This document shows positions 1-33,827 of a DNA stretch of 33,827 nucleotides, piece after piece. The stretch is from a virus. The notes beneath the pieces are model-generated. The model saw only the letters and a list, made by a program, of their open reading frames with translations, searched no databases and was not told the origin of the DNA. Positions within the stretch are counted from its first letter, which is position 1, and every line of letters begins with the position of its first letter. The translations under genes and the position numbers were made by a program. The stretch covers positions 1-33,827 of IMG/VR virus record IMGVR_UViG_3300025131_010157; one strand, 5' to 3'.

Positions 1-75
1 CCTTCACCACCGGGGCCTTCACCACCGGGGCCTTCACCACCGGGGCCTTCACCACCGGGGCCTTCACCACCGGGA
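1..75 (-). repeat. 15-nt tandem repeat, five copies, coding for GGEGP
   Basis: The plus-strand unit CCTTCACCACCGGGG occurs four times exactly in 1-60 and a fifth time at 61-75 with its last base changed; a degenerate half unit follows at 76-84. On the coding strand the unit is in frame and reads Pro-Gly-Gly-Glu-Gly. The array continues past the window edge, so the copy number is unknown. The five-residue period, with Gly-Gly pairs, is not a strict collagen Gly-X-Y triplet. It is likely a flexible or extended linker between LamG-like domains and whatever lies further downstream. Near-perfect nucleotide identity suggests recent expansion. Confidence 0.95.
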
Positions 76-17900: not shown

Positions 17901-20900
17901 TTCTTCTAGCTTTTCCTTAAGATCAGAAGGGGAGCCTCTTTTGCTTCTGGCTCCGCCAGAAATGCTACTCTCGATCTTATCCTCCAGATCTATTGCTATA
18001 TCATTTCCAAGCTGCCTTGCGATCTGCATATGCTTTTCGCTAGAATTTGTTAACGCTATTGAGATGCAGTTATCAGCGCCATATAGCGACAAACCAAGGT
18101 CTGGAGCCCTAACTTTGAATCGTTGATTAATGCCAACTAATTTAAAGCCAAGTATTTTTAATCTTCTGCCGCCTAATTCAACCTTTGTATCCCTTGTTGC
18201 TCCGCTGGCAATAATGAAGAAAGCCTTATTGGATTTCAGTCTAAAATCAGAAAACTTCAGATCCCCATTGGCAGAATAGCGAGCGCCTCCATCATCTTCT
18301 ATTTCTATAATTTCTGGAACATTAAATTTTATTGCTGATGTTTGTCCGAATCTAAATGTTAAGGTTAATTTGAACTCAGTATTATCATCAGTCTGTTGTA
18401 TAAATGATGTTGGAATTAAGGAATCTTTGTCAATATAAATATTATCAATATTTGTTCTGGTGAAATCGCTAGCCCTCGGCTCCATAGCTGAAGCACTCTG
18501 CACCAAACCATCAGCAGCCTGAGAAGCCAACTGTGTCAGACTCGACAGTTTGTCGGTCAGAGATTGTATGAGGGCAAGTCCGTCCTCCAGCAGTCCTAAG
18601 GCATCTGCGGCAGCGCCCGTGGCGGCTCCTGCGGCACTTGCAGCCGCACTAGATGGATCTGCACTTTCAGCCGCATCGGAAGCCTCTGTGGCGCTAGCAG
18701 AAGCTGCGTCGGCAGTTGTGAGCGCCTGATTGTAGTCAGCCTGTTTTTCTTCTATTTCTTGAATCTTTCCGTCAATATCGCTAACTTCGCCTTCTGTTGC
18801 TCCCTCTTTCTCTGATTCGAGAGCAGCCTTCTGTCTATCCAGATTCGCTAACTGCTCCTCTCCCTGCTCTTTAACTCTATCGATTCCGGCCTGAACTTCC
18901 GAAAGTGGAATCTGAGCCTCAGAATCACCTAATATATTTATCTTTACTATTTCTCCATGACTATTCTCTTTACTGGGATTAGCGTCAGAGTCGGATAAAA
19001 ACATCCCATAAGTCTTTCCATCTATTTCACTTCCAAATATTAAATCAACACTTGGGTAAATTTTTATTGGGCTTGGGAACCTTAGAAAAGAAGTCGTAGG
19101 AGTAAATGCCCATTTCCCAGGATCTGTTTGGATCGGAATTGATGATAGCCCAAGATTAGCTGGGAAAATATTTGGATATGGAGATATTTGATCATAAAAA
19201 ATATACGGTATAAGTTTATTTTCTTCAGATGCCAAAATCATGGCATCCTCACTAATAGATGGATCATTTTTAACAATAGAATCGTCTATTACCTCACCAC
19301 TTCCTGAAAAGCTTACAGTTAGACGATTATATACTGTAGAGTCATAAGTAACGTTAAATCTTTTATCTTTTTTGGTTACAACAACATCAAGATATCCGGT
19401 ATCCGTTATACCAGTTATATTGTGAAAGTTTGCCACAAGCTTTTCGGATTCGCCTTTAACGAATCCAAAACGATATTTAGTAATCTTCTTAGCACTTGAT
19501 CCGGAACCTATGGTAAAGCTATATGATCTAGATTTTCTTGGCTCGTCGGGGGGACCATTAAATATAACTGCCAACCGTTCTATTTTGTTATTAGTTTTTA
19601 GCTCTGCTTGATACGCTATTGGACCGCCTTGGGTTGAATCTAGCCAGTCTATATATTTTCCGCAGCTATCAACTCCAGCCTTACTTATATTAGAAAAAGA
19701 TTGATCGGTTCCGATCCCAGCACCAGACACTCGTATTGCTAGTCCGGTAATATGTGGAGGATTAATGAATGCAGGCTTATCTTCCTCTCCCTTTTTTGAG
19801 CCAATAGGAATTATGGCGTAATTAGGCTTCTGCAAGATAGGCGTTGCATCAGTAATTTTGGAATTACTAAGAATTATATAAGCTCTATAATTTCCACCGC
19901 TATAAGTAAGTTGATTAAATCTGCTTAAATTTAATTTTGATCCTGGCCCAGGAAATTTTAACTTAACCCTTCTGTTGGTACCATTATTTATTCTTGAAAA
20001 ATATTCAGAGCCTAACTCATACTCAAGTCCTGTAGGGATTATAAGACTAGTATGATCAGGAGTGTCAAGAAGCGTATAAACAAGCGGAGAAGAAGACTTG
20101 GTAACCGTAGTTGGCCATCCAATATCTTCTTTTAAAATATCATTATTTTCCTGATTATTCAGAACACCTATATAGGCATATAATTCAAGTCCTTTTTTAA
20201 AAACTGGCTTATCATATCTCAATATAATTTCTGCATTTGTTTTATCGTCCATCAATAATGGAATAGAATCTATTTCTCTGCCAAATCTTGGGGCCTTCAA
20301 AAGATTTGGATCTTTGAAGGTAATTCTTGGGTCAGGAGCCGATGGAACATCTCCTATGACAGTTCCTTCTGACTCAATATTTATTAAAATAAAATCGCTT
20401 GTTATCCCCGTATCTAATACAATTTGTATAAAAAATTTACCAGTTCTTGTTCCAAATAGATTTTTAATTAAACTATCAGAATCGCTTGAGCTTAGGCTGA
20501 GCTGCTGGCTCTGGTATGAAATAGTTATTCCATCTGCATCAAATAAAATTCCATTACCGGGTTCGGTTTCTGATATTGCTTCATATAAGTATATAGAGCC
20601 AGAGCTAATAGGCTCTGTCAGCTCTATTGTTAGATTTTCTATATCAGAATTCTTATGAAGGACTGTTCCATCTTCCAGAAATCCGTCTGGAGTAAGGGAG
20701 CTAATAATAAAAGACTGCGGATTAATCTTTATGTTTTCCCCGGAAACTCGAATTATTTGCCCATATTTATCTACGGCGTAAAGAGCAAATGAAGATACTA
20801 TTCCCGGATTATACAGACTAACGCCTGCATTATTTTCTCCAAATGGTATCTTCAGGGTAATTCCCTCCTCTCCGAGGGCCGGCGAGCCTAGAGCTATCCA

Positions 20901-22526
20901 ATTTGCCGGAATTTGGCCTATATCTGTTAAAATATTTGGACAAACAAATGCAGCAAATGATCTTGCGGAACAAATCTTCTGATTAAACCATCGCTGATCA
21001 TTCAGTAAATAAGTTTCTTTTGAAAAATCTCGTGAGCCAAGAACCATTTCTGGTCTATTCATTTCTCCTAACAAATCTGTTGAGCTTGTTGCTCCGATTA
21101 GTTCCGCAGAAACAGAAAGTGGAATACCAACGTCTTTATGGTCGTATAAGCTACCTAATATTACATCTCCCGCATATATCCTTGTAGAAAAAGAATCTTT
21201 CTTATAATCATCAAGGCTTTTCATTAATCTTTTTAGTTTTGTTTCTTGGTCTTTGGGTTTGGCACCAGGATTAGCAATAACCTCAGGATCAACAATGGCC
21301 CTCAAAGAATTCTTGAAGTAAGGCTTTGTAAGAACTGGGGCCGTAAACATCTCCAGAGCGTCATCTGCTTCGACAAATCCGACCGGCAGATTAACTAATT
21401 GTTGCGGAGCAATTATTGGTGATAAGAAATATTTATATGAAGAATCGTGTCCTTCTTCAGAGATAGTTAAAAATATATCACTTTCATCTGATGGATATGT
21501 TAGATCTGCGTCAATTACTTCGATATCTGGAGGAAAAGCATGGTCAAAAACTATTGCCTTATAATCCTTGCTCTGCTTATTTATAAGCTCAAAGCAAAAG
21601 AATAAATTTTCATCATCTGATGTGCCTTCTAGATTAATAACTCCTGAGCTATTTCTTCCTGATAAATCTGGAGTCTTTATGTATAAAGATCCATTTACTT
21701 CGGTATAGTATCCTATTACTCCTTGAGATTTGCTGCTTTCTATAAAATCTTCTTTTATATGAAAAATTGGAAAAAGCTCCAACAAGATTTGAGATATTCT
21801 TTCGTCAGTTATGTTATCTATATCAATATCTGATAAGAATCCAGTTAGTTCACCAAATGTTACTCCGGAAATTCCAACATAATTTTTTAATCCAAAAATA
21901 GGATTGCTAAGCTCCTGAGTTAATGCCTCCAAAATAGACTTTATTTTTTCAATTGGAATGAATTTAAATCCACCAATTTTAGATACAGAACTTAATCTTA
22001 TTCTTTTTTTGTTCTTACTTTCTACCTCGCTGTTAACCGAATCAACGCTTGATAGTGAGCTTCTAAGGCTGCTCATATACAAACTTGGTAAGCCACTAGA
22101 GTGAAGTCCAGTGGTTATATTCGGCATATTCTGGAGGGCTCTATTTATTTTTACTCTTGCGTTTACAAGCTCAGAAATTTTCTGAGAATCACTATCAGAT
22201 ATTTGTTCAATTTTATTTTTAGCAAATGTAGCAAGCTCTTTTATTGGAAGATTATAACGACCAAGCTTATCGGCACTAAGAGGCCTGATATCCGTGCCCT
22301 TAAAAGCTATCTTGACTATAGAGCCGCCAATAAGCGGAACGACATCAAAGTCGCCACTGCCGGCACTTGAAGCCTCCGGAAATAGAACCTCATAGCCAGC
22401 GCCTTCTAGGCCGGCACGGCTAGTTGATTCGTCTTCCTCTATGCAGTTTACCTTGACTTTAGAGAAATCTTCGTCCGTATTTATGGGTCCGATTAGATCT
22501 AATAAAATCTTTGAAGAATTAGCCAT
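14961..22526 (-). CDS. Giant virion protein with coiled coil and hydrophobic helical module, 2521 aa
   Basis: Not assignable to a named family. Residues 1 to about 1200 are beta-rich and repetitive in character. Residues about 1209-1269 are a charged coiled coil (DRVKEQGEEQLANLDRQKAA and onward). An Ala/Ser-rich stretch follows (about 1270-1330), then a helical segment with LIQSLTDKLSSLTQLASQAA. Residues about 1579-1722 are strikingly hydrophobic, with four or five membrane-like helices and several Cys (VIFCIIDVICALLNP, LFLCLYDLILLLP, LLLCIIIKVLG). At about 1837-1846 an EF-hand/dockerin-like loop D-L-D-G-N-G-E-H-D is visible. The last 250 residues hold an Ig-like domain (TFAITAPAAGIVKVRATV). 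The start has GGAG eight bases upstream. The gene lies between the spike and gp25-like genes, so it is probably a large baseplate or tail-tip component; a role in host-envelope contact is inference. Confidence 0.85.
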   Translation of the reverse strand: MANSSKILLDLIGPINTDEDFSKVKVNCIEEDESTSRAGLEGAGYEVLFPEASSAGSGDFDVVPLIGGSIVKIAFKGTDIRPLSADKLGRYNLPIKELATFAKNKIEQISDSDSQKISELVNARVKINRALQNMPNITTGLHSSGLPSLYMSSLRSSLSSVDSVNSEVESKNKKRIRLSSVSKIGGFKFIPIEKIKSILEALTQELSNPIFGLKNYVGISGVTFGELTGFLSDIDIDNITDERISQILLELFPIFHIKEDFIESSKSQGVIGYYTEVNGSLYIKTPDLSGRNSSGVINLEGTSDDENLFFCFELINKQSKDYKAIVFDHAFPPDIEVIDADLTYPSDESDIFLTISEEGHDSSYKYFLSPIIAPQQLVNLPVGFVEADDALEMFTAPVLTKPYFKNSLRAIVDPEVIANPGAKPKDQETKLKRLMKSLDDYKKDSFSTRIYAGDVILGSLYDHKDVGIPLSVSAELIGATSSTDLLGEMNRPEMVLGSRDFSKETYLLNDQRWFNQKICSARSFAAFVCPNILTDIGQIPANWIALGSPALGEEGITLKIPFGENNAGVSLYNPGIVSSFALYAVDKYGQIIRVSGENIKINPQSFIISSLTPDGFLEDGTVLHKNSDIENLTIELTEPISSGSIYLYEAISETEPGNGILFDADGITISYQSQQLSLSSSDSDSLIKNLFGTRTGKFFIQIVLDTGITSDFILINIESEGTVIGDVPSAPDPRITFKDPNLLKAPRFGREIDSIPLLMDDKTNAEIILRYDKPVFKKGLELYAYIGVLNNQENNDILKEDIGWPTTVTKSSSPLVYTLLDTPDHTSLIIPTGLEYELGSEYFSRINNGTNRRVKLKFPGPGSKLNLSRFNQLTYSGGNYRAYIILSNSKITDATPILQKPNYAIIPIGSKKGEEDKPAFINPPHITGLAIRVSGAGIGTDQSFSNISKAGVDSCGKYIDWLDSTQGGPIAYQAELKTNNKIERLAVIFNGPPDEPRKSRSYSFTIGSGSSAKKITKYRFGFVKGESEKLVANFHNITGITDTGYLDVVVTKKDKRFNVTYDSTVYNRLTVSFSGSGEVIDDSIVKNDPSISEDAMILASEENKLIPYIFYDQISPYPNIFPANLGLSSIPIQTDPGKWAFTPTTSFLRFPSPIKIYPSVDLIFGSEIDGKTYGMFLSDSDANPSKENSHGEIVKINILGDSEAQIPLSEVQAGIDRVKEQGEEQLANLDRQKAALESEKEGATEGEVSDIDGKIQEIEEKQADYNQALTTADAASASATEASDAAESADPSSAAASAAGAATGAAADALGLLEDGLALIQSLTDKLSSLTQLASQAADGLVQSASAMEPRASDFTRTNIDNIYIDKDSLIPTSFIQQTDDNTEFKLTLTFRFGQTSAIKFNVPEIIEIEDDGGARYSANGDLKFSDFRLKSNKAFFIIASGATRDTKVELGGRRLKILGFKLVGINQRFKVRAPDLGLSLYGADNCISIALTNSSEKHMQIARQLGNDIAIDLEDKIESSISGGARSKRGSPSDLKEKLEERYLKFMSVTLDKANVPKEQIQSFCDMSFHLTAELTMQLRNFKVLLVPIKVIFCIIDVICALLNPIALVFAIIRLFLCLYDLILLLPQLAVPAMALALVLHVVELLLCIIIKVLGIINAINEISTALQNAIEQKNYPAIIALEETIAEHLASLEADLTVLDPILNVLALFLELLSLTFAFPCQIKTDADEEACIDPSQLAGLIMSKVVPAGRIVPDALLPMAQTYTTLPVDDVGSAGNTPPAIFDFGSILSEVSEQASGVEIVSDNTGFGGRPLPGIRSSLTGDNILIEEGGFFEGDLDGNGEHDNVNYQSLRFNGGSFEGTFGLSFSRSTKEFAIFTGPDPRMVWFEFNESGKTAPHAFIPFFAPFFDKKTIDNLQTLDSPPSFLKPDGNSLKIAGDMDDIGFVSPIDGASDKDTTGGFFLERGADLNGARTYQPKPLTVTFELQEPGVNPDTLSAEFTPVEVTKTFGSIPMIALIDDEFNIYFVEEPGTGQGGIIVEDVNGVPAITAIHAKMMNFPTAPKKAFAVEGREIYLSFAELNPDPASIQAASLEALENDHEINAGEILIWQQANYNAIADSADQPFEFFADGTAVGDYNYVGGSPEDIDAITRAANTINVFDFPTLYIVDMRQLADDIAAACGASGPTELLLDLPGFTDTETIEDSITTLSECTQAFLDYFSSTIEDLNGVPVGIIPKVRSFLELGNVPEQISVRDVIDQYNILKDCYEGEIDNICGFVINPLNTSFKLLNDEDETPLTDFIDPEQEGLANLINFDIVDELEFDEELDGFPKITGAMEYASGVGDSAIVTVGSKAVINITPRDCYDDVLSPALDLTDSIKIDFLRDDTGGAKLASPSEGNEASIFEKNGGEYTFAITAPAAGIVKVRATVCSTVIQAVTDRGIIIPETDELEAKVDCVDDSAISIAEAEEVFAPGALTKVDRILTILFAKGIDSSSSGDKDRENSAKSSKPTPQTFGTKLEN

Positions 22527-22550: not shown

Positions 22551-22583
22551 ATTACCTTGAATAATAATATTATTCAAGGTAAT
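22551..22583 (-). repeat. Perfect 15-bp inverted repeat over the spike gene stop codon
   Basis: ATTACCTTGAATAAT and its exact reverse complement are separated by 3 nt. On the coding strand the left arm includes the last codons and TAA stop of the spike gene and the right arm lies in the 43-nt gap before the 2521-residue gene. No U-run follows, so it is not a standard factor-independent terminator. It could fold in mRNA as a processing or stability element, or modulate translation of the next gene. The AAGG it buries lies before a possible seven-codon reading frame, not before the real start. Confidence 0.85.
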
Positions 22584-24963
22584 CAAATAAGCAGTGAGCC
22601 TGAGCCAAAACTCCCTCTATTGTTGCAGTAGGGGTGTCTATAGATATTGGATCCTTATAGGTCTTTCTGGGAGACTGATTTCCTTCTCTTACCTCAACAC
22701 TCTGTCCGGCTAAAATCAGCTTAGAAGTACTTTCTAGGCAGATATCTCCGTCATTTCTTATAATCATAGGGCTGCCAGTATTCATGCCAGCAATTACAAG
22801 CCCATTTTTACTTATGGAGATTATATAATCTGATGCGTTAGTCTCTTCGGCTTCTTCTCCGAGAAATCCCTTGTGATTAACATTTACTCTTAATTCAAAT
22901 CTTCCTTCATTAAATTTATCACCATTTGTTCCTCCAACATTTATGAGGGCATCTCCATCTGTTTGTAGAATTAAACTTCTATTATTCTTATCTTTTCCAA
23001 ACCAAGCAATCATGCTTCCTGCGGTATCTAATATAATACTTTTCATATCATTATGATCCGCTCCAACAGATGCCTCAATTGCTCCTTCAAAATTTAGATT
23101 TGCGCTCTTTCCGCCAGAAGCTTTCCTGCTCTCTCCAGACTCGTCAACATTGGTTGTTGATACGACATCTCCATCATCATTCTTACTTACCGCGAATGAG
23201 TTAGTATACTGATAATTTGCTCTATTATCATTTTCATCAAAGTCAAGAGTAAGATCTTTTCCAGCCACCAAAACTCCACCGCCCGGATCAATAGCTGGAC
23301 TGCCCGGAGAGACTCCTACTGCTGCCATATAAGTTACTTGAGCTGAATCTTCCCCATTTAAATCAAGTGCCTCAGAGCTTCTTTCAAAAGATTTATTTAT
23401 AGAGTTTCCCGGAATAAACCCTACGCATGCTGTGTTTTGAAATGGAATCAAAACGCTATTAATGGTGTTTGCTATCAGCATCTCAGCAGCAGCATAAATA
23501 TTATGATGTTTTGTTGGGTTTATTCGAATATTTTCAGGCTGCTCAGCGGTTTGTTCTAATCCCTGGAAGTAACTATCATCATTTGAGTGTCTAATTCCTG
23601 TAAATCTAGTTACGCCTTCTCCCTCAGAAAGAACGAGATCTACGGCAGATTCAGACGGAATAAGAATTCCGCTCTCAGCATCCCTTAGTGTTATTGGAAT
23701 TTTTTCTTTTTTTCTAAAGTTATATGTTGTTTCTATCTTCTCAGAAGAATCAGAATAAAACTCAGCAAAGTTTGGATAAAAAATATTTCCAGTATCTGAT
23801 GTCGCAGGGATGTTCGCCTTTAAAGCCCCCTCTTTATCAATGGAAAAAATGAAATTACTTTCATTATTAGATACCTCATTGGACAGGCTGTTTGTTGATA
23901 GCTGGAAATGATATCCCATTCCTCTGCGAGACTGGAGCCGGCCCTTCTCATATTCCAATCGAATGTCTGATTCATCGGCCCGACCACCAGCATTACCAAT
24001 AACAACTCGGCCATAATTTGGATCTAATAGCTCTCCTCTTGAGTTGATAACGTTTCCTGCAATAATCTCTATAAGCTGGTGAGGCGCTAAATGTAAAGCA
24101 TTCTCTTGAGAAATAGCTCTTGTTTCTTTGTTATTTGAAAATTTAGATACATTTATTGAGTCAATTTCTCCAGATTCAACATCCCAGCCTCTAAAGTAAT
24201 CAGATTCAGAAATCTCATTAATAACAATTCTGTACTCAGATAGAGCAGGATTTCTTTTATCTCCAAAAATACTTGATCTTGCAGCTCTAAACCCCGGATA
24301 TATTCCCCTTACCATTCCGTAGTCTAAATTATATGTTTTTAAATCATTGCCAATATCTGCAATTCCGCTTTTTTGAGTGAATCCAGATGGAATTCTAATT
24401 GCGTCTCTTGACGTAATTCTGTGGGCCGAACTAACCAGCTGCATAGAGTCGGATACTAATGCCGTATTTGTTTTTACGGAATTTGCTTTAGATATAAATA
24501 ATCCACTAGAATGTTCGTTCCCAAGAAAAATTCCAGCAATAGCTCCGTCTCCGCCAAATAAATACAGTTCCCCGCCACCAGCGCCTACGGCCTTAAGCTC
24601 TCCCGGCACCAATCCCTTTGTTGGATAGTTGGATCTTCCTGCTAAAGTATTTCTCGAAGGCGCTCTTGATTCGGAGTTATCTCTATCTGCTTTAGGAATA
24701 ATTCTTAATGCCTGGAATATCCCCTTCCCGCCTGGAAAAACTCTAGAATAAATAACAGTATCACCAATGTCTGGATGCTGATAAATTCCTGCGCTGCCTG
24801 TTCCTCCATAGTAAACTGGAGGAATTATTATTGGATCCTTAATATCCGTTAAATCAGTTACTACATGCAAATCTCCAGTATTTTTATCAACCTTTATTAT
24901 TCTGCCTTCTTTTACTTTATATTTTTGGAGCTGATTCTTTACGCTATCCACGCCTACTTTCAT
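22570..24963 (-). CDS. Baseplate central spike protein, gp5/gpV-like with N-terminal OB fold
   Basis: 797 residues. Residues about 14-98 have the spike OB-fold pattern: EGRIIKVDKNTGDLHV, then a proline-rich IIIPPV loop, GDTVIYSR, and a closing strand. The C-terminal part is built of short beta repeats with Asp-Gly turns (LILQTDGDALINVGG about 665-685; IIRNDGDICLESTSKLILAG about 735-757), as in the beta-prism or beta-helix of gp5/gpV spikes that pierce the outer membrane. No lysozyme or peptidase domain is visible between them, unlike T4 gp5. The middle (about 110-640) is unassigned beta-rich sequence. It directly follows the hub gene (TAA-ATG with no gap), the usual hub-spike pairing. The end of the gene is part of a perfect hairpin. 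Confidence 0.85.
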   Translation of the reverse strand: MKVGVDSVKNQLQKYKVKEGRIIKVDKNTGDLHVVTDLTDIKDPIIIPPVYYGGTGSAGIYQHPDIGDTVIYSRVFPGGKGIFQALRIIPKADRDNSESRAPSRNTLAGRSNYPTKGLVPGELKAVGAGGGELYLFGGDGAIAGIFLGNEHSSGLFISKANSVKTNTALVSDSMQLVSSAHRITSRDAIRIPSGFTQKSGIADIGNDLKTYNLDYGMVRGIYPGFRAARSSIFGDKRNPALSEYRIVINEISESDYFRGWDVESGEIDSINVSKFSNNKETRAISQENALHLAPHQLIEIIAGNVINSRGELLDPNYGRVVIGNAGGRADESDIRLEYEKGRLQSRRGMGYHFQLSTNSLSNEVSNNESNFIFSIDKEGALKANIPATSDTGNIFYPNFAEFYSDSSEKIETTYNFRKKEKIPITLRDAESGILIPSESAVDLVLSEGEGVTRFTGIRHSNDDSYFQGLEQTAEQPENIRINPTKHHNIYAAAEMLIANTINSVLIPFQNTACVGFIPGNSINKSFERSSEALDLNGEDSAQVTYMAAVGVSPGSPAIDPGGGVLVAGKDLTLDFDENDNRANYQYTNSFAVSKNDDGDVVSTTNVDESGESRKASGGKSANLNFEGAIEASVGADHNDMKSIILDTAGSMIAWFGKDKNNRSLILQTDGDALINVGGTNGDKFNEGRFELRVNVNHKGFLGEEAEETNASDYIISISKNGLVIAGMNTGSPMIIRNDGDICLESTSKLILAGQSVEVREGNQSPRKTYKDPISIDTPTATIEGVLAQAHCLFDYLE

Positions 24964-27900
24964 TTAAGTAACCTCCTTACTGAGAAGGCCTGACGGAATA
25001 TCAACTATCCCTATCTCTATTATGCCTGATTTATAACCCCTCGATGCAGCTCCAACTACCTCTGTTCGTATATCAAGCCAGCCGGCTTGGCTTGGGCCGC
25101 CCTTCGGAAAAATACCAGATGCCTGATCATCGGTCAGCGAGCTAATACTTTCATCATGCTTTAGGGCAGACAGAATTCTTCTGTCCAAACACTTGATTTC
25201 TCCAATTTGATTTTTATCTGTTTTCTTGAAGTATGAAACTTGCTCAATAATTTTATTCGCAGGAACACTCCGAACCGGCTGACTGTTGGGCAGGGTCAAT
25301 GGCTTTAGGGTATTTTTTCCGGCTCCACCTAATAGCGGATTCTTCTGAGATATCTGGGAGGGTCGCTCAAATAGCTCCCTTATCTTTGCCATCTTACCTT
25401 GAGCGCTCTCAATCCCTTCTTCATCATCTTCGTCTAGTGCAAAGCCTCTTATCAAGAGGTACCTTGACCCGGAAAGACTTCCGATTAAATCTAGCATCAT
25501 ATTGGTGAATCTAATCTGATTATCTTTGAATGACAGGAGGCTAGCTAAAGACGCATCATCTGACGGGAATACTAATGTTGAGTCTGGATTGAGTGGTCGA
25601 TAATTATCATCAGTTTCGCTTGATCTATAGATTAGCGTTGGGTCATCTAAAAAGCTAGATACCAGTTGCTGGCCAATAACATCTAGCGGGCCGGGTATGT
25701 AGCCTCCGACGGGGTGACCATATTCAACGGTTAAATCTGTAGTAAATGAACTGCCAAAGTTAAAAGTGTGGGCGACACTTTTCACGTAATATAACAAGCC
25801 TTTGCTTGGAATATAAACGGTATCTCCAGGCTGATAGAACTCATTTCCGGCGATAGTAACTGTTCCGGTATTTATCGATAGCTTCTCCATTCCAAGCTTC
25901 AAAATTGCATACGGTTTCGCCTGACCATTAGAATCACTTATAAACGGAAGAGATAGCTGGTGCGCCTGGTAGCCGTACTGTCTCCATAGGTCAAAATCTG
26001 TTGCTCCAGCCCAGAAGTAAAGATCCTCAAGTCCGCGATTTATATTTGCGCCGAAGCCGAGTGGGGCGTCACCCTTTATGTCTAATCTGGTGAAATTGGG
26101 AGGATTCTCCTGAAAGGTGGAATTAAGAATATGCTCATCTTTCAATATGAACCTTTTTCCAGAACCCTGCCCTAAGAGGTTTCTCGTGTCATCCTCAATT
26201 AAGTGATCATATAAGGATCCTTCTGCCATTTTGCCAGTCAAGATGTCAGATCTTGTCTGTAGGGCGTTTGCACTTCTTTCTAAAAAGTCTACAACTTTAT
26301 CATTTATATTTAGCTCTATCCCGTCTGACTCTTCTCCAGTTCGAAGAATAGTCTCTATCTCCTTAAGCTCTTCTTCTTTAGCTAGATTTGCCTGAAGCAT
26401 TGAAACGAGACTATCTCGATCTGATATTGTCTTTTCTAACGTACTTATTAGCCCACTAGAGCCTGCGAAGATAGCCTTGTCTCTCGAATCTTCATCTGTT
26501 ATTTTGTAAACAAAATTCTTATCATTAAACTCGGACTCTATGTGCAATCCATTTGCCGGGTCGCGACCGAATTGCCTTTTGAATGTATTTCTAATATTAT
26601 TTAAGTCAGAAGCCGTAAAGTTCGTCGCAGGGGCTTCGCCCTCGCCTTGTGATCCGGTAGACCCTCCCGCTGGAGTCTGCAGATCGCTTATTACGCTTGA
26701 TTGCTCTTGAATAATTTGATCAAAGACGCCCAATAATTTATCAGTATTTCCCCCTAAGACATCTCCCTTATGCTGAAAGCTTGCAGATAAATCTAGACTA
26801 TTTTCCGCCTGCCTTACCGATCTGAGTGGATCAGTAGATGTTATATTTGTTTGAAATAATCCTAAAAATTTTGTTTGAGCGGAGCTGCTAGGCTCCTCAC
26901 CGGGAGTGTTACTATGATTTATAACAACTCCAAAAAACGGAAGAGAATCTGCTCCGCTAAGATTCATATTTGGAATAAGATTTTTATCAGGATATTGTCC
27001 TAAAAGCAATGATATAAGAACTATTTTTAGATTATACGTATGTATCTGGAGATACATTCCTTCTATTCTTGTTTGAAATAAGTCTGTTATAAAGCTAGGA
27101 ATAATGCTCTTATTCTCTTTCTTTTGAATTCTAATTGATTCCTTAAGAACACTTAATGGAACCCTGTTCCACGGCGGTGGCCTAAATTCCAAGTGACCCT
27201 GGGAGTTCGCAAAGAACTCAAGATCTAAATAACCAGAAGCTTCGCTGCACAACTGCCATGAGTTCTTGAACTCTCCATCAAACAGCTTCCAGCCGCCTGT
27301 GTTTAAAGCCAAAATAAATGGCTTAATATCCGCTGAGTCATACTGGTCAGAAACTATTAAGAGGTTTCTATCTCGGTTAAGCCTAACATCTTCTATTTTC
27401 CTCTGAGCCCCAACAAGCATCATAGCTCTAGTCACATCATTGTTTTCCTCTGCATCTCCAGACACAGGAAGGTTTACCGCTCCTGATAAACTAATTTGAA
27501 TTCCAACTTGATCCTCAGATGTTAAAGCGTTACCTGACGTAGTACCTATTTTAATTTGATTTCTAATGGCATTATCAATTGTTTCTATTTCCGATTGTAG
27601 TGTAGATACAAAGGCATTTATTGGAGAGATTCTTGATGGGCTCTTTTTTATATCTGCAATTTTTCTCCTTAGAACCCTCTTTCTTTTCTGCAGCTCCTTA
27701 ACATTATTGTTGGCCAAGTCTCTTGCACTGGCATTATTAAATGCCTGCTCGGTGCTTGCTGAGTTCATTGTTAACATTCGATACGGCTGAAAATTTCCAT
27801 AATAATTATTTTGTTTTCGAATAGTATTTAGAACTCCGGTTAACGGATCAAGGGGACTGAGTCTTGATGACTTATCTCTCTTATTATGTGCTGCAAACGC

Positions 27901-30027
27901 CTGCTCAATAAAGCTTTCTATGTTATATGGCTGTCCAACAATCAAAATGCTTAATATGTTTGGGATATCTAAATTATTTAAAACATTATCTGTGACAGTT
28001 ACTTGATTTACTTCACTGTGGTTAATATTATCTTGTGATTCTCCAGTAGCATCTGCAGCCTGGAATCCGGCAGTAGCCGTTATTATTCCAGACTTCCATC
28101 TATAAACAAATCCACTTGGATGCTGTAAAATCTTCTTGCCACTGAGCGATCCAATTCCGTTATACTGACCCTGTAGTAAATTTCCTTCTGATGCATTTTG
28201 TCCGGCAAATAGTCCAGAATCGTAGCTAAGCATTCCAGTTTGTAGTAGCTGTTTATTCTCATGCAAAAGCTCTCTTGATCCGGGAATTATAGCCCCCTGA
28301 TCATCTCTGCTAAAATCATATGGAGTTAATGGATCTTCGAGAATTCCCTTTGGGTCTGCTAGCGCTGGCCGAATGGCAAACTGGCTCCACTTGAGCCAAG
28401 ACATATTATCTGTACAAGATACGCTAAGAGAGTGGAATCCGCCAGAATATGTTTCTGACAAAGAAAGTACATATCCACCAAAAACGTGGATCATCCCGAA
28501 TGAATTATCTTGATTCTTTCTAAGCTTTTTATATTGTTCTATGGAAATATCCTGATTTGTGTAAAGCTGATATTCTGCCTTAAGAATAGAATTATCTATA
28601 TCTAAGAACTCACCATCAAACGGTGACTCGCTCGCCTCCTCTGGGTACGCTGACCCAGAATCAGTATAGTCGGTAAGAGTTCTGTTTCCCCTTATGTAAA
28701 AATGAACAGGATCTGATGCATTTATGAAGTTTTTACCTAAATAAAATTCTCTTAACCTATTTCTGATATAATCTATATCTAAAGAATCGTCTGCAGAGCC
28801 CGCTCCTGCCAATTCTATAACTGATGATATTGCAGATGATGCATCAAGTTGTGGAAGATTTCCGGACATTCCCTCTGACCCGAGCCCGCCACTTAATAGT
28901 TCTGCGAGAATTCCAACAGACCCATGTAGTGCTTCTTGAATCGCGCATTCTATGTCGTCCTCTAGGATTACTCCGATCTTGTATGGATATACCAAATTGA
29001 AACTTGCAGTAGAGGGATTTGAGTCATAGCTAACACTTGTGGAAAAATCGCTAAACAAGGCTAGCTCGATTACTCCGGTACCCGGCCCAATAATCTGATT
29101 CTCCGGATTATCTGGATCAACAATCCATGTTGTTAGATTATTATCAGTGGAGAACGCATTTCTCCTAAGGACAGATGCTATATCGGCATTTACCTTGTCA
29201 TATTCTTCAACGGCAGAACCATAAGATACCAAGCTTCCAAAGTCATCAAAGAAATCACCAATAGGATCTTCGGGTGTCGTTAGTCCGTCATATTCGGCTC
29301 CAAACTCAACTCTTTTCTTTGATAATATTTCGCGAGCCTGAGAAGATGGTATATTTTTTAAATATTCTCTATTCGCAATAGATCTTCTTTCACCAGAATT
29401 AACTATAAATGTTCTAGTTGCCAGATCAAATGTTGCTTGCGATTCACTGCCACTGGAAAATTCATCAAAATTTTGAGTAGTAGTATCAAACGATGCAGCA
29501 GACATATCTTTATCTAGCCATACCTCTAGCTTCTCAGTTACATATTCTTCTTTTGTTTTTCCAAGCTTATCCACATTTAGAAAAGATCCTTCTTTCAGAA
29601 GAGAAGATAGCAGGTTTACGCTATACATATGATTATCAGAAAAGAAATTTTCAAACTTAGTCAAGCTCTCATAGGCTCGAATCTGCTGAACCTTAAATGC
29701 AAAGAGCGCCTTAGTAGCTTTTAGTAGCATCTTTTCTGTTTTATCAATAAACCTTATGTCATTAATCCCGCCAAATGAAGAGAAAGCTTTCTTCTTAACC
29801 AGAATAACTGCGTCTGGAGACATCGTTACAATATTTCTCGTATCAGGAGTTATAGATACCGAATGATCTTGATTCAAGAAGATTGAAGCTCCAGAGTTTA
29901 CTAGTGATGGTTGATTTCCGGTACCACCACCAAGTTCGACATGAGCCGGATGAGAACCTCCGATTATATCGGACGTAGCCTTAAGGAGAGCGCTCGATAT
30001 ATTTCTCTTTAGAGTGTTTCTGGGCAT
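24964..30027 (-). CDS. Baseplate hub protein, gp27/gpD-like, strongly enlarged (1687 aa)
   Basis: Two stretches carry the hub signature. Near residues 915-955, WQLCSEASGYLDLEFFANSQ leads to GHLEFRPPPW, the 'old domain with aromatic/proline turn' common to gp27/gpD hubs. Near 1380-1430, PGDTVYIPSKGLLYYV-KSVAH is followed by FNFGSSFTTDL and EYGHP, the closing hub beta-domain. Hubs form the trimer that joins the tail tube to the spike. Its position, immediately before the spike gene, fits. The first 900 residues are additional and unassigned, with a basic helical stretch (QKRKRVLRRKIADIKK, about 775-795). A second acidic coiled-coil-like helix lies near 1205-1225. Usual hubs are about 350-450 residues, so most of this protein is lineage-specific. 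It starts 23 nt after the preceding gene with only a weak purine stretch. Confidence 0.85.
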   Translation of the reverse strand: MPRNTLKRNISSALLKATSDIIGGSHPAHVELGGGTGNQPSLVNSGASIFLNQDHSVSITPDTRNIVTMSPDAVILVKKKAFSSFGGINDIRFIDKTEKMLLKATKALFAFKVQQIRAYESLTKFENFFSDNHMYSVNLLSSLLKEGSFLNVDKLGKTKEEYVTEKLEVWLDKDMSAASFDTTTQNFDEFSSGSESQATFDLATRTFIVNSGERRSIANREYLKNIPSSQAREILSKKRVEFGAEYDGLTTPEDPIGDFFDDFGSLVSYGSAVEEYDKVNADIASVLRRNAFSTDNNLTTWIVDPDNPENQIIGPGTGVIELALFSDFSTSVSYDSNPSTASFNLVYPYKIGVILEDDIECAIQEALHGSVGILAELLSGGLGSEGMSGNLPQLDASSAISSVIELAGAGSADDSLDIDYIRNRLREFYLGKNFINASDPVHFYIRGNRTLTDYTDSGSAYPEEASESPFDGEFLDIDNSILKAEYQLYTNQDISIEQYKKLRKNQDNSFGMIHVFGGYVLSLSETYSGGFHSLSVSCTDNMSWLKWSQFAIRPALADPKGILEDPLTPYDFSRDDQGAIIPGSRELLHENKQLLQTGMLSYDSGLFAGQNASEGNLLQGQYNGIGSLSGKKILQHPSGFVYRWKSGIITATAGFQAADATGESQDNINHSEVNQVTVTDNVLNNLDIPNILSILIVGQPYNIESFIEQAFAAHNKRDKSSRLSPLDPLTGVLNTIRKQNNYYGNFQPYRMLTMNSASTEQAFNNASARDLANNNVKELQKRKRVLRRKIADIKKSPSRISPINAFVSTLQSEIETIDNAIRNQIKIGTTSGNALTSEDQVGIQISLSGAVNLPVSGDAEENNDVTRAMMLVGAQRKIEDVRLNRDRNLLIVSDQYDSADIKPFILALNTGGWKLFDGEFKNSWQLCSEASGYLDLEFFANSQGHLEFRPPPWNRVPLSVLKESIRIQKKENKSIIPSFITDLFQTRIEGMYLQIHTYNLKIVLISLLLGQYPDKNLIPNMNLSGADSLPFFGVVINHSNTPGEEPSSSAQTKFLGLFQTNITSTDPLRSVRQAENSLDLSASFQHKGDVLGGNTDKLLGVFDQIIQEQSSVISDLQTPAGGSTGSQGEGEAPATNFTASDLNNIRNTFKRQFGRDPANGLHIESEFNDKNFVYKITDEDSRDKAIFAGSSGLISTLEKTISDRDSLVSMLQANLAKEEELKEIETILRTGEESDGIELNINDKVVDFLERSANALQTRSDILTGKMAEGSLYDHLIEDDTRNLLGQGSGKRFILKDEHILNSTFQENPPNFTRLDIKGDAPLGFGANINRGLEDLYFWAGATDFDLWRQYGYQAHQLSLPFISDSNGQAKPYAILKLGMEKLSINTGTVTIAGNEFYQPGDTVYIPSKGLLYYVKSVAHTFNFGSSFTTDLTVEYGHPVGGYIPGPLDVIGQQLVSSFLDDPTLIYRSSETDDNYRPLNPDSTLVFPSDDASLASLLSFKDNQIRFTNMMLDLIGSLSGSRYLLIRGFALDEDDEEGIESAQGKMAKIRELFERPSQISQKNPLLGGAGKNTLKPLTLPNSQPVRSVPANKIIEQVSYFKKTDKNQIGEIKCLDRRILSALKHDESISSLTDDQASGIFPKGGPSQAGWLDIRTEVVGAASRGYKSGIIEIGIVDIPSGLLSKEVT
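24972..24978 (-). promoter_or_regulatory. Strong Shine-Dalgarno of the spike gene
   Basis: AAGGAGG on the coding strand lies inside the 3' end of the hub gene, 8 nt before the spike ATG at 24963. It is the best ribosome binding site in the window, consistent with a need for separate high-level initiation despite the abutting stop and start codons. Confidence 0.9.
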
Positions 30028-30050: not shown

Positions 30051-31052
30051 CTAGAAAGAATTCCTTCTTTTGATTGGGACAGAATTTGGATCCTCTTCTA
30101 CTTGAGCCTCATCATCGAACGATGATGAAGTATTTCCAGAAGGCCCTATTGAGTTATTTCGATTCACAACTAGCCTAGGATTTCCTATATTATTCCCAGA
30201 GTCTATCACCGGAAATGATAGCTCATCACTTCCCGGAGATTGCCCCTTTGACTCTGTTGTTCCTAGGCTCATACTTGCTTCCTGATCATGATTAACTGGA
30301 CTTCTATGCCATGGCATAAAGTTAGTTCTCTCTCCGGTTCTCCTTGTAACGGTAAAGCCGAAAGAATAATCAAAAAGCCCAGGTTGAGTAGCTAGTTCTG
30401 TTGTTGTAAAATTTGAAAAATATCCCCTAAAAAATTCTCCCTGATAATACATATCAACGTTAGTTGCAAAGGCTGCCAAGCTAGGTATGGTTTTGAAGAC
30501 TCCGGGCCTGCCGAGCCTTGCTCCGCTTTCTGATCCAAAAATTAAATCTATTGAATTAGACACTCCATCCACAACCTGTGTGAATGCACCTCCCGTCAGG
30601 AGGTCCGAAACATTGGAAAATTTTCCAAATGCATCATCTCTTTTTGCCAAACTATTTGCGGCATCTTTGGCATCTTGAGCTGCCGCCTCCGCAATCTCTC
30701 TTTGTCTTTTTATTAAAACCCTTCTGTATTGAATCTGCTCATGTCTATAAATAGACCGAAGTATATTAATCCCCTCTATGCCAGATGAGCCGGTTGTTCC
30801 ATTTACTTGAATTTTCGGAAGCTCCTCTCCCCAATACTGAACAATATATCCGCCCTTCGCAAGATCAGCCTTAACGAGCTTTGCCTCAGTAACAACAAAG
30901 TTTTGAGGATTAATATACATTTGTTTTTTATCCCAAAAAACCTCTCCATCTTTTGATGCAGAGTAAGGATTTTGATCATTAACAAAGGCTTCCATCTCTA
31001 ATGGAAGAAAAAAGATAATTGTTTGCCTGCCTATTCTATGTTGGGATGTCAT
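30051..31052 (-). CDS. Distal-tail / hub-associated virion protein (Dit-like candidate)
   Basis: 333 residues. It sits between tape measure and hub genes, where contractile phages encode the tube-baseplate adaptor. Residues about 50-90 (FVVTEAKLVKADL... YIVQYWGEELPKIQVNGTTG) look like the small beta domain that ends in an 'I.v.G.TG' strand in distal tail proteins. Residues about 205-245 (MYYQGEFFRGYFSNFTTTEL, then FDYSFGFTVTRR) look like a second strand-turn-strand that pairs with it. Between them lies a charged Ala-rich helix (QREIAEAAAQDAKDAANSLA). The C-terminal 80 residues are polar and low complexity, ending in KRRNSF, probably disordered. The assignment rests on position plus pattern, and a LysM-type adaptor remains possible. 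Its ATG abuts the tape measure TAA with no strong Shine-Dalgarno, implying coupling. An alternative start is Met20. Confidence 0.65.
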   Translation of the reverse strand: MTSQHRIGRQTIIFFLPLEMEAFVNDQNPYSASKDGEVFWDKKQMYINPQNFVVTEAKLVKADLAKGGYIVQYWGEELPKIQVNGTTGSSGIEGINILRSIYRHEQIQYRRVLIKRQREIAEAAAQDAKDAANSLAKRDDAFGKFSNVSDLLTGGAFTQVVDGVSNSIDLIFGSESGARLGRPGVFKTIPSLAAFATNVDMYYQGEFFRGYFSNFTTTELATQPGLFDYSFGFTVTRRTGERTNFMPWHRSPVNHDQEASMSLGTTESKGQSPGSDELSFPVIDSGNNIGNPRLVVNRNNSIGPSGNTSSSFDDEAQVEEDPNSVPIKRRNSF

Positions 31053-32912
31053 TTAATGATTTTCTGTTACTTGCTGCCCGAGGCTAGCGGAAATAGCAAG
31101 AAGATTTTTGAGTTCTTCAGTCATGCGGACGTCCACTACTACGTTTTTGTTGTTTTTGTTTGAATCAGTAAAAGCCCTGAGCGCTGCGGCTAAGTCGTCA
31201 GTTGTCGGCCCAGAACTTCCGCCGCCTGGGTCGCCGGATGGAGGAGTGGCTAAATTTTGTTGTGTATTCCTATCGACTTTGCCAGCATCAGTTTCTGCTC
31301 CGAGAACACTTGCAGCTCCCGTCCCATCTGGGCCTGCACCTATTACTCCCAAAAGCCTATCAACTCCAGCTGCATAGGTGCCCACACCATCTCTCGCTGC
31401 TTTTGATCCGACGTCAACCATCTCTTCAAGTTTATCCCTAAGAAGCTCTGCGCCGCCTCTTTGTTTTAAAAGTGTTTCGCTCGCTATTACTGCCAACCAG
31501 TTTGATTGTGCGGCAAGATGCCTGTTTGACAGCTCAAGCTTATCTAGAGTCTGATCTCTGCCATCTTTTTCTTTAGCTATCTGCTCTTCGAGTAATGCTT
31601 TTGCATCAAGATCTCCAGATCTTGTTGCATCATCTAGGTCAGCTAATAACTCAAGCGTTCTATTTGCTGACGCCTCATCCTTTATTCCAAACTGATTCAC
31701 TAATAGTTTCTGCTGCATAAAAAAATCTTTCTCTAGCCCAGGACTTTCTGCGGCCTGTGAAACCGTCACAATATCGCCGCCAGTAAATGATGCCAAAGTA
31801 TCTCTCATGCCCTTTGCTAATTCGGCTCCAAGATCTGCTTGACTTCCTGTTTTTTCTGCTTCCAAAACTGCGGCTTGCAATCCAATCGATGAGCTTAAAA
31901 CTCCTCCGCCTCCGCCAATATCCAGGCCCCCTCTTTGAAAGATTAAATAAGCATTTGCATAATCAGTTGTAAGGCTTGCTAATGAACTTGATAACCCTGC
32001 GGTTAAATCTGTTGCGTTTTCTATGCCCAGCCCCATATCATTCATCACTCTTGCAAACCCTTGCATTAGAGGAACGCCAAAGTCAGCAGATATGCCAAGT
32101 TTTGTAAATCCGGAAACAGCACTATTTAGGGTTTCAGAAACGCTTCTTATGCTGAGGCCAGTCTCCATTGATACTCCACCAAACATTGCCATCATCTCTA
32201 ATGCGTCTTGAGCGCTTTTGCCCTGTTTGTTTAGAGCTGTGCTAAGAAGCCCCATGCCTTCGTTGGCCGTTAGCCCACTTGCGGCTGCCAAAGACCATGC
32301 AGCAGCCAAAAGACTTGTGTCTCCAAGCCCTGTTCCAACAGTTTTGTTTAGCTGCTCTAGGGTTACATTTGTTCCTGCAGATGCATCTGCAAAAGCTTTT
32401 AGCTTGTCTCTCGTAAGGTGTAATGTTTCACCGAATTGACTATATGTTTCTTTCCTTAGGGCTTCTCCGAACTTAAAGGCTTGCTCAATCGTACCGCCAA
32501 ATTTCTTATTTAGATCAAAAATACCGCTAGCAAAGGATCTCACATCCCTAGACGGAGCATCAAAAAAATCAAATGCAGCCTTAAGTCCTGCATCGCCAAT
32601 ACTAATAAAATCTGAAAAAGCGTCTCCGACTACCCCAATTCCTTTTCCCAGACCCTCGAAGCCTTCTCCAACCAGTGGACCGGTAGACATTAAGGTAGTT
32701 ATAAACCCTAAAGAGTTTTTTCCGGCATCTACAAAGTTTTCTGCACTTTTCGCCAGATCCTCGAAGGCGCTTGTCATGTCGCCAACAGGCTTTGCGCTAT
32801 CCGAGCCAAGACGACTCAGGCGATCAACAGCCTCTCCCATACTTGTGATCGCCTTAGCGGCTTTCAACGCGCTGTCGGTAGTCTTTTTAAACTTGCTATC
32901 TTCTGTCGTCAT
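31053..32912 (-). CDS. Tail tape measure protein
   Basis: 619 residues, almost wholly helical by composition, rich in Ala, Gly, Ser, Leu and charged residues, with the amphipathic repeats expected of a tape measure (ALKAAKAITSMGEAVDRLSR at the N-terminus; KDGRDQTLDKLELSNRHLAA about 450-480). A Gly/Pro-rich linker (PPSGDPGGGSSGP) precedes a short C-terminal helix. The gene directly follows the frameshifted tail assembly chaperone, the conserved order in tailed phages. By the usual rule of about 0.15 nm per residue, it would set a tail of roughly 90 nm. No lytic-transglycosylase or peptidase domain is visible. The start lies 8 nt after the chaperone stop, with an AGGT that overlaps that stop codon. 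Confidence 0.9.
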   Translation of the reverse strand: MTTEDSKFKKTTDSALKAAKAITSMGEAVDRLSRLGSDSAKPVGDMTSAFEDLAKSAENFVDAGKNSLGFITTLMSTGPLVGEGFEGLGKGIGVVGDAFSDFISIGDAGLKAAFDFFDAPSRDVRSFASGIFDLNKKFGGTIEQAFKFGEALRKETYSQFGETLHLTRDKLKAFADASAGTNVTLEQLNKTVGTGLGDTSLLAAAWSLAAASGLTANEGMGLLSTALNKQGKSAQDALEMMAMFGGVSMETGLSIRSVSETLNSAVSGFTKLGISADFGVPLMQGFARVMNDMGLGIENATDLTAGLSSSLASLTTDYANAYLIFQRGGLDIGGGGGVLSSSIGLQAAVLEAEKTGSQADLGAELAKGMRDTLASFTGGDIVTVSQAAESPGLEKDFFMQQKLLVNQFGIKDEASANRTLELLADLDDATRSGDLDAKALLEEQIAKEKDGRDQTLDKLELSNRHLAAQSNWLAVIASETLLKQRGGAELLRDKLEEMVDVGSKAARDGVGTYAAGVDRLLGVIGAGPDGTGAASVLGAETDAGKVDRNTQQNLATPPSGDPGGGSSGPTTDDLAAALRAFTDSNKNNKNVVVDVRMTEELKNLLAISASLGQQVTENH

Positions 32913-32920
32913 AAATTAAC

Positions 32921-33355
32921 CTATTCTTCTTTTGCAAGATTAAGGAGCCCAGCCAAATTCTTTGGCAAACGGACATTTCTTCCGTCTCTAGCTCTCTCAT
33001 TATCATATAAATTAGTATTTTTATACTTTTCTTTAATAGCCTGAACAATATGGTCGTCTTTGAATGATCCGTCTAGTATTTGCTTCTCGAACTCTTCGTC
33101 ATCCATAAACCTTGGATCATCAACCGAGTCTCGAGAATCACGAACCTGCTTAACTGCCTCTGCATTCCAGAATGATGCAAGATACTCTGTTAGGCTTAAT
33201 TGGTAGTCATATTGATCTGACTCATCTTGATAAAACATTTGAGCATACCAAGCCCACTGCTCTCTGGTTATTTCAGAGAACTTTTCATCATCGACTTTGC
33301 AGCCCCAAATTTTGCAGAGTTTCCAACGGAGCCTACTGATAGGCTCCGTTGCTAT
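32921..33355 (-). CDS. Tail assembly chaperone, -1 frame portion (long form C-terminal domain)
   Basis: An ATG at 33238 gives 105 residues, but the frame is open without a stop up to the heptamer at 33355-33361. Its first codon after a -1 slip is the ATA at 33355, adding 39 residues. These read IATEPISRLRWKLCKIW..., then FSEITREQWAWYAQMFYQDE, which looks like real protein: a Trp-rich helix feeding straight into MFYQDE. The fused long form would be about 287 residues, counted from the start at 33783. In lambda, P2 and others, a -1 shift near the end of the short chaperone makes a minor long form; the extra domain recruits tail-tube subunits while the short domain coats the tape measure. No good Shine-Dalgarno supports independent initiation at 33238. 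Confidence 0.85.
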   Translation of the reverse strand: MATEPISRLRWKLCKIWGCKVDDEKFSEITREQWAWYAQMFYQDESDQYDYQLSLTEYLASFWNAEAVKQVRDSRDSVDDPRFMDDEEFEKQILDGSFKDDHIVQAIKEKYKNTNLYDNERARDGRNVRLPKNLAGLLNLAKEE

Positions 33356-33361
33356 TTTTTT
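33324..33361 (-). promoter_or_regulatory. Programmed -1 frameshift signal: slippery A-AAA-AAA and 12-bp stem-loop
   Basis: On the coding strand the end of the short chaperone reads CTA AAA AAA TAG, so the phase is A_AAA_AAA, the X_XXY_YYZ form for -1 slippage (33355-33361). The stop codon forms a 3-nt spacer. It is followed by a perfect 12-bp stem, CAACGGAGCCTA with its complement, and a 4-nt loop (33324-33351). The spacer is shorter than the common 5-9 nt, but stems usually open partly at the ribosome. The heptamer, phase, structure and open -1 frame all agree. Confidence 0.9.
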
Positions 33362-33783
33362 AGCTCTTCTAACCCGACCTCTTTAGACGAAGTTTTGGTA
33401 AGCTCTTCATGAACACGATGTAATCTTTCAACTACTGATAGCTGCAGCCCTAGCACAACGCTTAGGCGCTTATCCTCATCAGAAATAATCTCAGTATCTT
33501 CACATAAATCAGCCAGTGGTACGCCGTTAATTGTTCTTAAAGAGAATGACAGAGTAAGGGGCCTGATATCAAGAAGTCTATCGACTTCCTCTGAGGTCAT
33601 AATCTTCCTCATAATACTTTTTTGTTCATTTATATTTAAAGTTGAAATCTCAAACGTAAAGCCGCCGATGACTTCTTTCCTTGTAAGCCTCCCAAGAAAG
33701 GCTAAATCTTTTAAAGAAGACATGCTTAGCTTATTCTGCTTCGGCTCTTCGGTTTTATCTAATTTAACTGGATCTTGACTCAC
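33352..33783 (-). CDS. Tail assembly chaperone, short (frame 0) form
   Basis: 143 residues from a GTG at 33783. After a disordered, charged N-terminus (to about residue 25) comes GRLTRKEVIGGFTFEISTLNI, NEQKSIMRKIMT, LLDIRPLTLSFSLRTINGVPL, then a C-terminal helix (VVERLHRVHEELTK). That is the sequence style of short chaperones that bind the tape measure: a small beta sheet with a T-L-x-x-x-E motif, then helices and a central 'INGVPL'. The GTG overlaps the upstream gene's TGA as GTGA, with GGAG nine to twelve bases before it. The frame is also open to the window edge and encodes a polar stretch (QVSNNNEQADGESP), so the true start could lie outside. It ends at the TAG within the frameshift site. 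Confidence 0.8.
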   Translation of the reverse strand: MSQDPVKLDKTEEPKQNKLSMSSLKDLAFLGRLTRKEVIGGFTFEISTLNINEQKSIMRKIMTSEEVDRLLDIRPLTLSFSLRTINGVPLADLCEDTEIISDEDKRLSVVLGLQLSVVERLHRVHEELTKTSSKEVGLEELKK

Positions 33784-33827
33784 GGGGCTCTCTCCATCTG
33801 CTTGCTCATTATTATTTGAGACTTGTC
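33780..33827 (-). CDS. C-terminal end of the upstream gene (partial)
   Basis: Only the last 15 codons (DKSQIIMSKQMERAP) before a TGA at 33782-33780 are inside the window. The stop overlaps the GTG start of the chaperone as GTGA, a common coupled junction in phage operons. Function cannot be told; the position suggests a tail-tube, sheath or completion gene. This frame could also be non-coding if the chaperone starts further upstream. Confidence 0.4.
   Translation of the reverse strand, partial: DKSQIIMSKQMERAP

Follow-up and report, generated by a model that had tools for sequence, protein, structure and literature searches.

The DNA analysed here (the window) is a stretch of 33,827 nucleotides from an uncultivated phage, positions 1 to 33,827 of IMG/VR record IMGVR_UViG_3300025131_010157. 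Near the high-numbered end of the window the minus strand carries two overlapping open reading frames, ORF1 and ORF2, with a candidate -1 frameshift signal at their junction and two further tail-module genes behind them, as follows.

33352-33825, minus strand: ORF1, putative zero-frame (G-like) tail assembly chaperone, 157 aa, its 5' end open at the end of the window; fold match to gp181 of Bacillus phage G
33355-33361, minus strand: slippery heptamer A_AAA_AAA in X_XXY_YYZ phase; a canonical heptamer is found in 82 of 83 distinct homologous junctions
33352-33354, minus strand: zero-frame TAG stop, abutting the heptamer with a gap of 0 nt
33324-33351, minus strand: predicted stimulatory hairpin, perfect 12 bp with a 4-nt loop, arms 33351-33340 and 33335-33324, -21.3 kcal/mol
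33328-33347, minus strand: conserved stem core, GGAGCC (33347-33342) with GGCTCC (33333-33328), beginning 7 nt after the heptamer
32921-33361, minus strand: ORF2, putative -1-frame (T-like) extension, 144 codons after the slip, first ATG at 33238; homologous to the gp182 extension of phage G
31053-32912, minus strand: tape-measure-like protein, 619 aa; Pfam PhageMin_Tail, E = 0.0027, below the curated cut-off
30051-31052, minus strand: putative tail-tube-initiator-like protein, 333 aa; phrog_1011, E = 0.0033, and PF23980, E = 0.036

In the zero frame ORF1 ends GAG CTA AAA AAA TAG, and the -1 frame reads AAA AAA ATA GCA ACG GAG and onwards to a TAG at 32921. An earlier note on this DNA had proposed a frameshift signal here without giving a strand, and on the minus strand we recovered its elements as described: A_AAA_AAA in the exact slippery phase (33361-33355), the TAG directly after it (33354-33352), a perfect 12-bp hairpin that begins without a gap after the stop (33351-33324), and a -1 frame open for 39 codons, counted from the ATA overlapping the stop, before the first ATG of the downstream ORF at 33238. 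As a measure of chance, in-frame X_XXY_YYZ heptamers occur at 75 of the 10,897 codon junctions (0.7%) in the nine long minus-strand ORFs of the window, and perfect 12-bp hairpins with loops of 3-8 nt occur at three places in the window, compared with none in 20 Markov-1 draws. The decisive evidence for the signal is its conservation rather than these single-sequence statistics.

Scans of IMG/VR gave five loci with ORF1 and 23 loci with ORF2 alone. An alignment of the window and 13 relatives, used as a query, returned the best 80 of 83 qualifying loci, and an alignment with the phage G ORF2 as its first row returned 73. Junctions were read at 75 of the 80 loci in the first of these two sets and at 32 of the 73 in the second, making 107 IMG/VR loci, and loci on contigs already taken, near-copies and an edge fragment were left out; both alignment-based search patterns lie downstream of the heptamer, and so did not select for it. 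Junctions were counted as distinct when they differed in the 40 residues after the junction, which gave 83 among the 107 loci, phage G included.

An in-phase slippery heptamer close to the 3' end of ORF1 is conserved in this collection: in 82 of the 83 distinct junctions a canonical X_XXY_YYZ heptamer is separated from the following zero-frame stop, TAA or TAG, by 0 nt (63 junctions) or 3 nt (19), and clustering at 90% gives a similar result (61, 17 and 1 of 79). A_AAA_AAA is used at 40 junctions with a 0-nt gap and at one with a 3-nt gap, A_AAA_AAC at 20 and four, respectively, and A_AAA_AAG at three, all with 0 nt; T_TTA_AAA (13 junctions) and T_TTA_AAG (one) lie at 3 nt throughout. The commonest in-frame heptamers in the coding background of the window (TTTAAAT, AAATTTA, AAATTTT and AAAAAAT) are used at none of the 82. 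TGA is likewise the junction stop in none of the 83, although this is weak evidence, because the long open frames of these loci seldom end in TGA (21 of 326). In the first set, all 57 rows have NTA as the -1-frame codon holding the first two letters of the stop, where codon usage within the loci would predict 19.9, a difference to which we attach no probability because the rows are related and include two cut copies; six loci of the second set carry a different codon at this position and have their stop one codon further on. A rule that the stop falls always exactly at +7 (75 of 75 in the first set) was ruled out by the wider scan, in which six loci have it at +10 and one, L158, is irregular. 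Homologues with a disrupted heptamer, which the earlier note had named as evidence that would count against it, were searched for and came down to this one distinct junction in 83. L158 has kept the hairpin, and its irregularity may be a real change, a different shift site or an assembly error; the region concerned (L158:650-760) shows a G-rich stretch before an early TAA.

The heptamer and the stop have both changed repeatedly within the family. On a quick ORF2 tree of 55 rows, built without the junction columns, the heptamer class changes at least eight times, or 10 times if rows with two overlapping heptamers are treated as their own class, and every change leads from one slippery class to another; TAA and TAG are exchanged at least nine times. 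L037, which carries overlapping T_TTA_AAA and A_AAA_AAA, joins a 12-row T_TTA_AAA clade (SH-aLRT 92, and 90 for the clade itself) and is a plausible intermediate for the sliding of a slip site by one codon. The placement of L059, which also has T_TTA_AAA, and of several long rows is not settled on this tree.

The stability of the hairpin was compared with controls in which synonymous codons were redrawn while the ORF2 protein was kept. Among 57 hairpins, 50 were more stable than their controls at p ≤ 0.05 and 38 at p ≤ 0.01 (median z of -3.68); L083 and L104 are cut copies, and without them 48 of 55 passed at p ≤ 0.05. The seven hairpins that did not pass this control were those of L053, L056, L067, L072, L078, L082 and L100. 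Measured against other windows of the same genes, the hairpin was more stable than every sampled window in 33 of 55 cases. Glu codons of the 5' arm are GAG in 17 of 17 and 35 of 36, and the Ile codon over the stop is ATA in 41 of 41. Because 50 of the 57 exceed their codon-redrawn controls, codon choice indicates that the hairpin is selected beyond the protein code.

We defined a type-I stem as one forming at least five of the six core pairs GGAGCC/GGCTCC or their equivalents, and by geometry such a stem is present in 61 of the 83 distinct 60-nt stretches. Wider stems occupy the same place in 13 of the 83, of which 11 pair arms resembling AGCTCC with arms resembling GGGAGCT, in two registers offset by two bases, and two, in L152 and L182, have other sequences; neither type fits in nine, phage G included. 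In an alignment of type-I stems (40 distinct rows, omitting L067 and L072, which fit no common stem) 75.6% of cells pair, compared with 30.8-52.3% for slid stems, and the covariation score of 0.194 was reached by none of 500 shuffles, a test in which related rows can exceed the shuffles without structure. The number of pairs with double changes in this alignment (four) was not unusual, being reached by 139 of 500 shuffles. For the type-II stems, aligned as 12 rows with two registers mixed, the paired percentage was reached by 417 and 114 of 500 shuffles, and no covariation is claimed.

The earlier note had remarked on the unusual shortness of the spacer, namely the 3 nt of the stop codon itself, and on the 12-bp length of the stem. 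Both statements are true of the window but neither is general in the family. The short spacer is partly apparent, because it is created by the four outer pairs, all of which form in only 10 of the 61 type-I stems, whereas the distance to the conserved core is 7 nt from A_AAA_AAN heptamers and 10 nt from T_TTA_AAA. The usual distance from heptamer to stem is 5-8 nt (PMC4066793), so that the 7 nt of the A_AAA_AAN group lies within this range and the 10 nt of the T_TTA_AAA group exceeds it. In some relatives the loop of the stem is at least 9 nt. A Shine-Dalgarno-like upstream stimulator was also sought: the median locus was matched by 19% of control windows, and 16 of 56 loci fell in the best 5%. 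One locus has a strong Shine-Dalgarno-like stretch, AAGGAGGT (L031:5970-6001), approximately 17-24 nt upstream of the heptamer. A search of the window against Rfam gave no match at gathering scores.

Both ORFs lead to a known tail assembly chaperone by way of phage G, through predicted fold and through tblastn. The model of ORF1 (pLDDT 78, pTM 0.65) matches the folds of phage G gp182 and gp181 (both E = 4.9e-7) and of other named tail chaperones, and its best solved structure is the HK97 chaperone 2ob9, with a probability of 0.98 and an E-value, 0.11, that is not significant. The ORF2 model has low overall confidence (pLDDT 75, pTM 0.48) and matches gp182 with E = 2.4e-4; in tblastn, ORF2 aligns with phage G across gp181/gp182 at 35% identity over 71 residues (E = 6e-4). 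Profile searches of ORF1 and ORF2 against Pfam and PHROG found no known chaperone family at a useful E-value, neither blastn of the junction (928 bases) nor tblastn of the tape-measure-like protein found a match among cultured phages, and one scan of bacterial and archaeal genomes gave 19 pattern matches and no relative. Phage G gp181 ends GAA TTA AAA AAC TAG and gp182 is recorded as a two-piece join; the window and phage G have in common a heptamer abutting the stop and a homologous -1 extension. The phage G proteins were annotated as chaperones because of a lambda-like signature frameshift (PMC8570332), and their label rests on frameshift and position; according to the same paper, mass spectrometry of the phage did not detect them.

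The gene order is that of a tail module. In the window the zero-frame and -1-frame ORFs lie next to each other upstream of the tape-measure-like gene, whose own profile match is weak, and the gene at this position in L084 matches the phrog_8125 tape measure with E = 2.1e-4. The contig of L030, whose ORF2 is 100% identical to that of the window and whose ORF1 counterpart is 163 aa from its ATG, and that of L084 both have the order sheath, phrog_985 virion (tube-like) protein, ORF1, ORF2, tape-measure-like protein and weakly tail-tube-initiator-like protein. The sheath upstream of ORF1 matches phrog_2839 (E = 1.3e-14 in L030 and 5.6e-14 in L084), and proteins at the place of the tail-tube-initiator-like protein match PF23980 with E = 0.0024 (L041) and 1.2e-4 (L084), all below the curated cut-off. 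Further along, the window encodes a protein resembling baseplate J (E = 1.9e-22) and another, below the curated cut-off at E = 1.1e-5, that resembles a sheath initiator.

Because the signal is conserved, the gene order is appropriate and the proteins match phage G gp181/gp182, ORF1 and ORF2 very probably form a single gene, encoding the tail assembly chaperone of a phage with a contractile tail and expressed by -1 programmed frameshifting as in lambda G/GT. This is the reading that the earlier note had offered, and it fits the heptamer, its phase, the stop and the hairpin as well as the gene order and the phage G homology. Most ribosomes would read ORF1 to the TAG and make a short, G-like protein; with tRNAs on AAA_AAA and the ribosome meeting the hairpin, some would slip back by one base on A_AAA_AAA, and these would continue through ATA GCA to give a long, GT-like fusion of approximately 307 aa. 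Tandem tRNA slippage at the heptamer, its rate and the minority status of the long product are what we would expect of such a signal, the chaperone role is suggested by analogy with lambda (PMC5009743), and the ratio of short to long product would presumably matter in tail assembly.

Systems of this kind are known, and a stop abutting the heptamer is already present in phage G. Lambda G/GT and its conserved analogues in double-stranded DNA phages are frameshifting tail chaperones (PMC5009743), in which, as in the arrangement proposed here, a -1 slip late in the first gene gives a short and a long product and the tape measure is a partner (PMC5009743). Proteins of this kind would be expected to be made in both forms, to be missing from virions and to bind tape measure and tube. 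The lambda heptamer, G_GGA_AAG, differs from that of the window. A stop as close to the heptamer as in the window is not usual for the lambda kind; the mean distance in SEA-PHAGES training data is 26 nt (PMC10885494). We found 0 nt in phage G and in Eggerthella phage LE2-3, and for GGGAAAA heptamers 9 nt in Myrna, 3 nt in E3 and 9 nt in Stormageddon; it is plausible that a stop right behind the heptamer is rare among phage chaperones. Bacillus phage G (Donellivirus gee) is one of the closest systems, with a homologous ORF2, an ORF1 of matching predicted fold, the order sheath, virion proteins, chaperone and tape measure, and A_AAA_AAC directly before TAG. It differs in its -1 extension of 254 codons, in the limited identity noted above, in a tape measure gene of approximately 8.7 kb and in the absence of a strong type-I hairpin after the stop, where local folding is weak (-5.9 kcal/mol across 45 nt). 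In LE2-3, LE23_86 and LE23_87 lie behind a related sheath gene with the junction CTA AAA AAA TAA, the stop abutting the heptamer; here, however, two separate genes were deposited without a join, and the likeness to the window lies in the junction and the sheath neighbour. LE23_86/LE23_87 (MW679026.1 63968-64704; L108:6156-6892) look like an unannotated -1 frameshift pair, with the -1 frame open for 113 codons.

Three other explanations were considered and rejected as the main one. By termination-reinitiation, ribosomes would begin ORF2 afresh at a start close to the ORF1 stop or beyond it, and no frameshift would take place. The window does have an in-frame ATG at 33238, and L066, L082, L084 and L178 have TAATG at the junction, in which the ORF1 stop shares bases with an ORF2-frame ATG, so that these loci could also reinitiate. 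A separate start for the downstream ORF was, however, the other finding that the earlier note had set against its proposal, and our search placed an ATG, GTG or TTG within the first seven ORF2 codons in only four of the 83 distinct junctions (L066, L082, L178 and L181), and none within the first 40 codons in 20 of them. A well-conserved stretch of ORF2, RLRWKLCKIW, sits upstream of the first ATG of the window, and reinitiation leaves the conserved heptamer unexplained; we consider it very unlikely. Slippage of RNA polymerase on the run of A residues, yielding mixed mRNAs, is suggested by the A7 of the window and is more improbable still, because the sites in homologues include A6 before a C or G and TTTAAAA, with a run of only four A residues, and neither a fixed stop nor a hairpin would be required; transcriptional slippage usually needs longer runs. 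The least credible of the three makes the hairpin and T-run an intrinsic terminator of the opposite (plus) strand lying near the heptamer incidentally: a scan calls the hairpin terminator-like (12 pairs, CTATTTTTTT tail) and finds four such sites on both strands in 32500-33827 against 0.9 expected, and most homologues keep the T-rich stretch on the plus strand, but all ORFs of the window above 140 aa are on the minus strand, leaving no plus-strand transcript apparent to end, while the heptamer phase, zero-frame stop and codon choice are conserved and the loop of the stem reaches 9 nt or more in some relatives. Termination on the plus strand may be a secondary role of the hairpin.

Within the programmed frameshift that we favour, the role of the adjacent stop can be read in two ways. 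Across this chaperone family, which includes contigs of more than 200 kb, TAA or TAG stays 0 or 3 nt downstream of a heptamer that shifts and changes, beside a stem rebuilt in several pairings. The polymerase signals of luteoviruses, dianthoviruses and umbraviruses (BYDV, RCNMV, GRV and PEMV) similarly have a zero-frame stop 0 or 3 nt past the slippery site and beside a stimulatory stem (PMC4737148), and both spacings occur in the phage family, 0 nt in 63 and 3 nt in 19 of the 83 distinct junctions. The plant signals differ in belonging to RNA viruses read by eukaryotic ribosomes, in their larger stems with long-distance pairing and in a 5-nt spacer, and we claim no homology. In PEMV, replacing the stop by a sense codon is reported to lower frameshifting markedly (PMC4737148). 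It is possible, if somewhat doubtful, that the adjacent stop takes an active part in this bacterial frameshift signal and is itself under selection, the signal having converged on the plant virus design, with termination near the base of the stem setting the ratio of short to long product. A terminating ribosome might pause at the stem base, or leave queued ribosomes on the heptamer. The existence of the 3-nt group shows that immediate entry of the stop into the A site after the slip is not required. The passive reading, in which a nearby stop merely fixes the end of the short product, is so far as good. We found no remark in the open-access literature, as far as it was available to us and with Xu et al. 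2004 outside that scope, on a family-wide stop kept at 0 or 3 nt while heptamer and stem change.

The 83 distinct junctions form a natural series of one frameshift signal in mostly uncultivated phages, some with contigs of more than 200 kb, and the unusually compact form of the switch is common to many uncultivated relatives and the cultured phage G. Whether, and how, a stop beside the slip site helps -1 frameshifting, a question argued over in plant viruses, thereby becomes testable in E. coli. As the chaperones were missed by the profile libraries used, the junction signal also offers a way to annotate tail modules.

The tail module of the window further encodes very large proteins, of 2521 aa (14961-22526), 797 aa (22570-24963), 1687 aa (24964-30027) and at least 3057 aa (3-9173). 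The 2521-aa, 797-aa and at least 3057-aa proteins had no Pfam match at E = 0.001, and the first two no PHROG match at 0.001; the 1687-aa protein had weak PHROG matches only, one of them to a tail protein with lysin activity (E = 0.0064). A perfect, A+T-rich hairpin of more than 12 bp at 22551-22583 extends over the end of the gene for the 797-aa protein and into the gap that separates it from the gene for the 2521-aa protein, and a perfect 12-bp inverted repeat with a 6-nt loop lies at 6548-6577, within the gene for the protein of at least 3057 aa.
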